A stretch of 64,000 nucleotides of DNA. Origin: Candidatus Poribacteria bacterium. Its GTDB lineage: Bacteria; Poribacteria; WGA-4E; WGA-3G. Where the stretch lies: contig JAPPFM010000050.1 of NCBI GenBank assembly GCA_028821605.1, forward strand, positions 1-64,000, written 5' to 3'. A program made the position numbers and the translations under genes. The notes under the pieces are model-generated. The model saw only the letters and a list, made by a program, of their open reading frames with translations. It did not search any database and was not told the DNA's origin. Positions 43,005 to 45,649 of this stretch are shown one piece after another. The stretch's first letter is position 1. The number at the start of each line of letters is the position of its first letter.

Positions 43005-43289
43005 TCACGAATAGACACCCAGTCGTACTTTGGTCTGTTGATACTGCAAGCATTGGTTTTTGGCAATCCGATACATCCACGTTCCAAACGCCGTGCGACC
43101 TTGAAACGCCTTAATGTGCTTGCGTGCTTCTGAAAACGACGCGTATGTTATACTTTCGGCATCCCTTGGATTGCCAAGCATCTGATATGCAACCTCATAA
43201 ATTTTTGGACGGTGGCGTTTAATCAATTCATCAAATGCCTTGTCATCTCCGGCTACTGCTTTCTGAATGTAAACATCATCAGGAATCAT
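43005..43289 (-). CDS. Sigma-70 region 2 protein lacking region 4 (second stub)
   Basis: A 94-residue protein: AVAGDDKAFDELIKRHRPKI, a core-binding segment LGNPRDAESITYASFSEARK, and the helix TAFGTWMYRIAKNQCLQY. It resembles the stub at 10778 in length and in ending just after region 2. No region 4 is found downstream in any frame before the next gene. A near-consensus promoter at 43324-43352 and a GAGGT site show that it is a transcribed gene. Confidence 0.78.
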   Translation of the reverse strand: MIPDDVYIQKAVAGDDKAFDELIKRHRPKIYEVAYQMLGNPRDAESITYASFSEARKHIKAFQGRTAFGTWMYRIAKNQCLQYQQTKVRLGVYS

Positions 43290-44206: not shown

Positions 44207-44250
44207 ACCGAACTGATGACCGATAACTACTAAGAAAGGAGAATATTCCA

Positions 44251-45582
44251 ATGAAATTCCGAATTCTGAGTATAATACTCGGCATACTACTCTTAGCCGT
44301 ATCCTTCTGCTTCGGCCACGGCGACGAAGAGGTTGCAGAGGATCAGGTAATGGTGAAATCAACCGGTTACTGGATCTATAACGACCTTGATAAGGGTATT
44401 GCCGAAGCAGAAAAGACAGGACAACCCTTGCTCGTCGTTTTCCGCTGAGTGCCGTGAGAGTCCTGCCAAGGCTTCGACGAACAGGTTGTTCGTCACGACA
44501 AACAAATAAAAAATCTGATGGAGCAATTTGTGCGCGTCCGTATTGTGCAAGGCAACGGTATAGACTTATCACTGTTCCAATTCGATTACGATCTCACCTT
44601 CGCAGTTTTCTTTATGAATGCCGATAAAACCATCTATGGACGTTTTGGCACACGTGCGGAATATGAAAATGCAGCAAAGGACATCTCAATTGAGGGCTTC
44701 AAAGGAGCACTTGAAGCTGCTCTTACACTACACAGCGAATATCCTGACAACAAAGCAGTTTTAGCCGCGAAGACCGGACCTGAGCCGATAAAGAAAACCC
44801 CAGAGGCATTTCCAGCGTTGTTGCGCTACTCGTCAACTCTGAATTTTAATGGACGAATTGAAGGACAGTGTATCCACTGCCACCAGATCGGTGAAGCACA
44901 GCGAGAGATCCACTGGTATGACCGGAAGTCAATTCCGGACGCAATCCTTTATCCGTTTCCAATGCCTGATGTTCTGGGGTTACATTTTTCACCCAAGCAT
45001 CGCGCGAAGATTAGTAAAGTGGTACCTGGTTCCTTCGCCGAAAAAGACGGTTTTCGTCGTGCAGATGAAATCTTAACGCTTGACGGACAACCGATTATCT
45101 CAATTGCTGATGTGCAGTGGGTACTACACCGCGCACCGGAAAACACAACATTACCAGCAACAGTTGATCGACACGGCAAGGAAATTAACCTTACGCTCAC
45201 GCTCAAACCGGGCTGGCGGAAGGGAAGCGACATCTCTTGGCGCACGACCACAGGCGAATTGCGCCTTGTGGCACTCGGTGGGATGGTACTTCAAGACCTA
45301 TCCGACGCTGAACGCCAACGCAACGCCATCGGCAAAACAGAGATGGCACTGAACGTTGAGGTCGTCAGTCGTCGCTCACGTCGTTCAAACTCAGAAACCA
45401 ATGCCCAAAAGGCAGGTATCCGTCGAGGGGACATTATCGTCGCTTACGGTGACCGGACGGACCGGTTGATGGAAAGCGGTATTATCGCCTATGTACTACA
45501 GGATGAACCTCAAGCAAAGGCTTTACCCATAAAACTCCTGCGAAATGGAGAGCAGATCAAAGTAGAACTTTCACTCGAATGA
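44251..45582 (+). CDS. Putative selenoprotein: exported thioredoxin-like (UxxU), CxxCH and two-PDZ protein
   Basis: One frame of 443 codons is broken only by two TGA codons, at 44446-44448 and 44455-44457. Around them the frame reads VVFR-U66-V-P-U69-E-S-C72-QGFDEQV, where a thioredoxin-like fold is expected to have its Cys-x-x-Cys. A bacterial-SECIS-like hairpin follows at 44476-44494. The protein has a signal peptide (residues 1-22), the thioredoxin-like domain (35-165), a CIHCH haem c-type motif at 207-211, a PDZ domain near 240-325 and a second near 370-443. It would act outside the cytoplasm as a redox protein. AAAGGAG precedes the ATG. If Sec is not inserted, a 65-residue peptide would result. 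SelA, SelB, SelD and tRNA-Sec are not in the window. Confidence 0.85.
44476..44494 (+). promoter_or_regulatory. Bacterial SECIS-like stem-loop
   Basis: GACGAAC-AGGTT-GTTCGTC: a 7-bp perfect stem with a 5-base loop that has G in its second position. The loop starts 25 bases after the second TGA and 34 after the first, inside the usual 16-37 base range for bacterial SECIS elements. Confidence 0.75.
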
Positions 45583-45603
45583 TTGAGAGACAAAAGGGGA
45601 AAT

Positions 45604-45649
45604 CCACGGGTTGGACAACCCGTGGGTCCCGTACCGACGAATGTACGGG
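45604..45649. repeat. Two adjacent hairpins
   Basis: CCACGGGTTG-GA-CAACCCGTGG (45604-45625) and CCCGTAC / GTACGGG (45628-45634, 45643-45649). They form a dispersed palindromic repeat in the spacer between the selenoprotein-like gene and the DUF3500 gene. Confidence 0.6.

Follow-up and report, generated by a model that had tools for sequence, protein, structure and literature searches.

A putative thioredoxin-fold/PDZ selenoprotein with two selenocysteines from Candidatus Poribacteria

The gene and its reading frame

The window analyzed here is a 64,000-nucleotide stretch of contig JAPPFM010000050.1, from a Poribacteria MAG with a 6.0-Mb assembly and 98% completeness. Translated with TGA read as U, one forward-strand frame had only two internal TGAs, at codons 66 (44446–44448) and 69 (44455–44457). 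Both lie in the active-site string R-U-V-P-U-E-S-C, and the frame ends in a terminal TGA at 45580. The translation reproduced what an earlier note, made from the sequence alone, had described as a single frame of 443 codons with no other stops. That note had further predicted that a gene caller would report a 65-residue peptide plus a headless protein. The standard ORF listing gave the headless protein only (354 aa, from 44518). The following features were recognized.

44230..44250, + strand: Shine-Dalgarno region TAAGAAAGGAGAATATTCCA upstream of the ATG; most relatives have a GGAG-type motif at this position
44251..45582, + strand: putative Trx7/PDZ selenoprotein gene (443 residues and a stop codon), translated with Sec at TGA codons 66 and 69
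44251..44322, + strand: hydrophobic N-terminus (residues 1–24), likely a signal peptide or membrane anchor; helix 2–20 in the model, hydrophobic in most relatives
44371..44736, + strand: thioredoxin-like domain (residues 41–162), Pfam Thioredoxin_7 (7.9e-16), matching 3f9u with Z 14.2
44446..44448, + strand: UGA 1, predicted Sec66; TGA in all close relatives, TGC/TGT in CxxU and CxxC homologues
44455..44457, + strand: UGA 2, predicted Sec69; TGA without exception among the U-bearing homologues seen, and a Cys codon in the CxxC ones
44464..44466, + strand: third active-site Cys72 (UxxUxxC), Cys in 141/154 distinct homologues
44476..44494, + strand: SECIS hairpin, 7-bp stem GACGAAC/GTTCGTC with loop AGGTT, showing compensatory changes and following the bacterial SECIS rules for both UGAs
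44869..44883, + strand: CxxCH motif (residues 207–211), candidate c-type haem site, invariant in 36/36 aligned homologues
44974..45204, + strand: first PDZ domain (residues 242–318), Pfam PDZ_2/PDZ_6, matching DegP PDZ1
45400..45579, + strand: second PDZ domain (about residues 384–443), a second PDZ_6 stretch with a weak match to an Aquifex RseP-type PDZ (384–440)

The Shine-Dalgarno sequence 5' of the ATG, AAGAAAGGAGA, was good to strong and common to the relatives. The terminal TGA was considered as a site for a third Sec. From there the frame continues into a DUF3500 gene, with a strong hairpin 3' of the TGA, but close relatives have TAA or TAG in its place. This reading was therefore rejected, and the TGA is a true stop. 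The strong inverted repeat after the terminal TGA (CCACGGGTTGGACAACCCGTGG, 45580–45625) mimics a SECIS, and the genome has one other copy of its core.

Conservation of the two UGA codons

The nearest relatives of the window were all Candidatus Poribacteria MAGs. Both codons were TGA in 14 of 14 Poribacteria relatives with 68–91% identity, with the frame kept and the site free of other stops and frameshifts, whose presence would have spoken against the proposal of the earlier note. The Cys-containing homologues that it had called for were also found: among more distant genes from Planctomycetota and Verrucomicrobiota, some had both TGAs and others had one TGC or two, and TGT occurred at these codons as well. 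Throughout the alignment, paralogues and deeper Poribacteria included, both positions were Cys or Sec without exception.

Among close relatives, dN/dS was about 0.05–0.12 in the segments downstream of the TGAs, and therefore the downstream part is selected as protein. It is very improbable that the gene is broken and that its TGAs are real stops or sequencing mistakes. A standard ORF caller does split the gene, and in one relative an additional TAA interrupts the frame. Against a pseudogene or an error stand the dN/dS of about 0.1 on both sides, the recurrence of both TGAs in many independently assembled genomes, the covariation of the hairpin described below, and the identity of the stop codon, which at codons 66 and 69 was only ever TGA and never TAA or TAG.

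The TAA lies at codon 152 of the copy in question (L060, genome G062), a position that reads CAG or GGA in its neighbours. This copy is otherwise intact and conserved, and is perhaps broken or affected by an assembly error. The TGA in L066 arises from a frameshift artefact and was ruled out as Sec. A copy with apparently three TGAs (G181:C148) has two in the motif (UVTU), the third lying past the conserved part, where the frame is degenerate.

Selenocysteine machinery of the host

The host genome encodes selA, selB, selD and tRNA-Sec, all scoring above curated cut-offs, as the proposed Sec decoding requires. The tRNA-Sec has the anticodon TCA (UCA) and adjoins selB. The open frame through the TGAs could also be produced by a reassignment of TGA to an ordinary amino acid, such as Trp or Gly, rather than by local recoding to Sec. 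We regard this as scarcely credible. The homologues have Cys at both sites, not Trp or Gly, the Sec machinery with tRNA-Sec(UCA) is complete, and the gene itself terminates in TGA where relatives have TAA or TAG.

The selD gene of the host (G000:C30:71300-72223; L042, L084) has one in-frame TGA of its own, in KCAG-U-ASKLAPG, and therefore SelD itself is probably a selenoprotein. The hairpin found after this TGA in a simple scan was short (4 bp). One relative has a second, partial selB-like gene near selB (G054:C50:157864-158679).

A hairpin downstream of both UGAs

Bacterial SECIS elements are described by a loop of 3–9 nt, a stem of 4–16 bp, a folding energy of -7.5 kcal/mol or lower, a G within the first two positions of the loop and a UGA-to-loop distance of 16–37 nt (PMC13188914). 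The hairpin at 44476–44494 passed all these rules for both UGAs, with a 7-bp stem, a 5-nt loop that has G at position 2, and an energy of -8.7 kcal/mol. From the second TGA the stem begins after 18 nt and the loop after 25 nt; from the first TGA the distances are 27 and 34 nt. The earlier note was right about the 7-bp hairpin, the AGGTT loop and their SECIS character, but had placed the start of the hairpin 25 bases after the second TGA, which is the distance to the loop. Hairpins passing the same rules followed only 27 of the 1088 TGA triplets in the window, which, like the conserved TGAs and frame and the low dN/dS, speaks against a chance occurrence.

In 26 distinct U-bearing sequences, 96% of the cells of the 7-bp stem were paired and 16 cells were changed on both sides. 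The covariation score of this stem exceeded those of all 500 shuffles and of all slid versions. The stem occurred as GACGAAC/GTTCGTC, GACGGGC/GTCCGTC and GATGCAC/GTGCAT, always with an AGGTT loop. Two divergent CxxU copies (L075, L078), in which the third Cys is missing, had the same AGGTT loop on a very different stem sequence. By chance choice of synonymous codons, the stem would arise in 5–8% of cases and would be joined by an AGGTT loop in about 1%. The same stem was paired in just 43% of cells when five CxxC homologues were compared. Folding and comparing the hairpin, the check proposed for it at the outset, thus gave compensatory changes in the U-bearing relatives and a broken stem in the Cys-only ones.

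Hairpins of -7.5 kcal/mol or better were found in 93 of 128 U-bearing genes versus 3 of 26 Cys-only genes, with a Fisher p of about 7e-9 that overstates independence, the sequences being related. By the simple ungapped scan used, about a quarter of the U-bearing homologues had no hairpin reaching -7.5 kcal/mol. The whole region of 51–75 nt, folded as a single sequence, gave z values between -0.4 and -1.3, short of significance, so that the SECIS claim rests on covariation and not on energy.

One hairpin can reach both UGAs, because its loop lies 34 and 25 nt downstream of them, both within the usual 16–37 nt. We consider it probable that it serves the two. SelB with Sec-tRNA-Sec would then decode UGA 66, followed by UGA 69, from a single hairpin in the coding region, and termination at UGA may take a share of the ribosomes.

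Distribution of UxxU, CxxU and CxxC forms

The protein scored 396.9 bits against NCBIfam NF041199, “Trx7/PDZ domain-containing (seleno)protein” (cut-off 300), and covered profile positions 1–389 of 390. It passed the equivalog cut-off and has the Thioredoxin_7 domain followed by PDZ domains, with the C/U-x-x-C/U motif at the thioredoxin active site; its likeness to the family is that of a member. Matches above the cut-off were present in 25 of 85 Poribacteria, 110 of 392 Planctomycetota and 5 of 289 Verrucomicrobiota genomes.

We called the motif in 80 fetched stretches in addition to the automatic loci; the true motifs of L109 and L133 are RUDPU and RCAPU. The 154 distinct genes comprised 89 UxxU, 39 CxxU and 26 CxxC forms, the CxxC share not being a frequency estimate, as fetching favoured TGA-bearing matches and Cys-only genes were under-sampled. 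UxxC, with Sec at the first site alone, was found in none of the 154. This absence is unaffected by the sampling, because the listed one-TGA matches were fetched. Two Sec in one UxxU had been called rare in the earlier note. Within NF041199, with its 89 of 154 genes, UxxU is not rare.

Members with CxxC, CxxU and UxxU all scored above the NF041199 cut-off and were interleaved in one tree. A fast, unrooted tree of 155 genes, with both sites masked, had 27 state changes, about 20–21 of them between CxxU and UxxU. A careful tree of 38 rows had five. Some genomes, for example G008 (Poribacteria), have UxxU, CxxU and CxxC copies together, and neighbouring duplicate Trx7/PDZ copies were seen in Planctomycetota (L185, G215:C242; L187, G379:C198; L194, G388:C27).

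The absence of UxxC has two readings: either the second Sec is chemically needed, or the hairpin is set for the second UGA and merely reaches the first. A stronger form of the latter is that only the second UGA is decoded efficiently, while the first mostly terminates, which would leave little double-Sec protein. Three observations agree with such a scheme: most homologues have the hairpin 23–26 nt from the second UGA, first-site Sec never occurs without second-site Sec, and 34 nt is close to the upper limit of the usual spacing. The first UGA, however, is retained by every close relative and by the majority of genes, 89 of 154. Retaining it would carry a cost if translation were blocked there, and we consider this scheme unlikely. 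Decoding of both UGAs is our preferred reading. The family as a whole would likely be one in which one SECIS programmes two Sec 9 nt apart, large and mostly double-Sec in Poribacteria, Planctomycetota and Verrucomicrobiota. The order of acquisition would be fixed: second-site Sec comes with the hairpin, the first site switches often between Sec and Cys, and first-site Sec alone never occurs.

From the sequence evidence, we strongly infer Sec insertion at codons 66 and 69. The interpretation of the earlier note, a double-Sec protein with predicted export and a candidate haem-binding motif, is supported.

Domain architecture and putative function

Pfam gave significant matches for Thioredoxin_7 and for PDZ domains. 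The structure model agreed with these matches, and with the thioredoxin-like fold and two PDZ domains first read from the sequence. The full-length AlphaFold model (mean pLDDT 89.9, pTM 0.87) had an N-terminal helix (2–20), the thioredoxin domain, a helical segment with the CxxCH motif and the two PDZ domains. Modelled alone, the thioredoxin part had a pLDDT of 80.7. Its best matches were 3f9u (DsbD C-terminal-like domain; Z 14.2, 2.5 A, 117 residues), AGR2/AGR3, ERp18 and DsbD, and the sequence profile agreed. Residues 66 and 69 are modelled between strand 60–65 and helix 73–81, the catalytic position of the thioredoxin fold. We are highly confident that the gene encodes a double-Sec thioredoxin-fold redox protein.

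The product would be exported, with Sec-x-x-Sec at the start of the catalytic helix cycling between diselenol and diselenide. Such a two-Sec centre would be a low-potential diselenide, resistant to permanent oxidation. A synthetic SecXXSec glutaredoxin, described by Metanis, Keinan and Dawson in 2006, is reportedly strongly reducing. Like those of DegP/HtrA, the two PDZ domains probably bind client proteins. Cytochrome c assembly proteins were found in the host genome, and the invariant CxxCH could therefore be a haem site, possibly of the c type. It probably carries covalent haem and could pass or take electrons. Export, haem, client binding, redox direction and the shared use of the hairpin are thus what we infer for this protein.

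Its most likely role, for which the chances seem about even, is to reduce or isomerize disulphides of PDZ-bound client proteins in the periplasm or envelope. In a structural or sensory role, UxxUxxC and CxxCH would instead bind metal or haem, the PDZ domains would relay the signal, and clients would undergo no selenol catalysis. The third Cys, present in 141/154 homologues, the invariant CxxCH and the resemblance of the PDZ domains to those of the stress proteins DegP and DegS fit this role. We hold it to be rather unlikely, as the motif lies at the catalytic position of the thioredoxin fold and Sec in such folds is typically catalytic. Redox catalysis by the two-Sec centre is preferred.

Comparison with known proteins

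The C-terminal domain of DsbD and the AGR2/ERp18-type proteins are Cys-based. They share the thioredoxin fold and the place of the redox motif with this protein, but are without the CxxCH segment or PDZ domains. For the PDZ pair (residues 245–440), the nearest matches were the PDZ domains of DegP/HtrA (DegP/DegQ) and RseP. The protease domain of DegP/HtrA has no counterpart here: the Pfam scan of the protein gave no trypsin-like protease domain, which sets it apart from the HtrA/DegP proteases.

Other UxxU selenoproteins, namely Prx-like oxidoreductases, the NF041115 metal-binding/mercuric-reductase-like proteins and FmdB-like proteins, likewise have two Sec in one UxxU (PMC13188914, PMC2398784). 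They belong to other families with other domain architectures, and none is listed with PDZ domains. NF041199 was first noted in the GOS survey (PMC9402790). A 2026 review gives it as CxxU with one Sec (PMC13188914), whereas the gene studied here and most of the members surveyed are UxxU with two. The one-Sec count of the review describes the known form and is not a defining feature; either residue, Cys or Sec, is compatible with the NCBI name “(seleno)protein”. The protein family is thus already catalogued, while its two-Sec form and the single hairpin for both sites are largely unremarked. In a search outside which most subscription journals lay, we found no paper on the UxxU form of NF041199 and none naming both Poribacteria and a selenoprotein. 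The NCBI curators may know of the UxxU form.

Few UxxU proteins are known, and little work has been done on them. In NF041199 the two-Sec form is common, and the protein occurs naturally in CxxC, CxxU and UxxU versions, which makes two questions testable: the chemical gain from a second Sec in a thioredoxin fold, and the use of one SECIS for two close UGAs. Ordinary ORF calling splits or truncates such genes across many Poribacteria and Planctomycetota genomes.

Gene neighbourhood

Comparing neighbourhoods, we found no conserved redox neighbour outside the genus, and the immediate neighbours in other genomes had no common theme. A pyridine-nucleotide oxidoreductase next to two CxxC copies was considered as a partner. 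In the one case scored, its best name was soluble transhydrogenase, and it was set aside as not an obvious partner. Genes for a chorismate-lyase-like protein, a DUF3500 protein and an O-methyltransferase adjoin the Trx7/PDZ gene only in members of the genus or family. Also in the window, at 43005–43289, a 94-residue ORF with sigma-70 region 2 only adjoins a TPR protein and is possibly a truncated ECF sigma factor.
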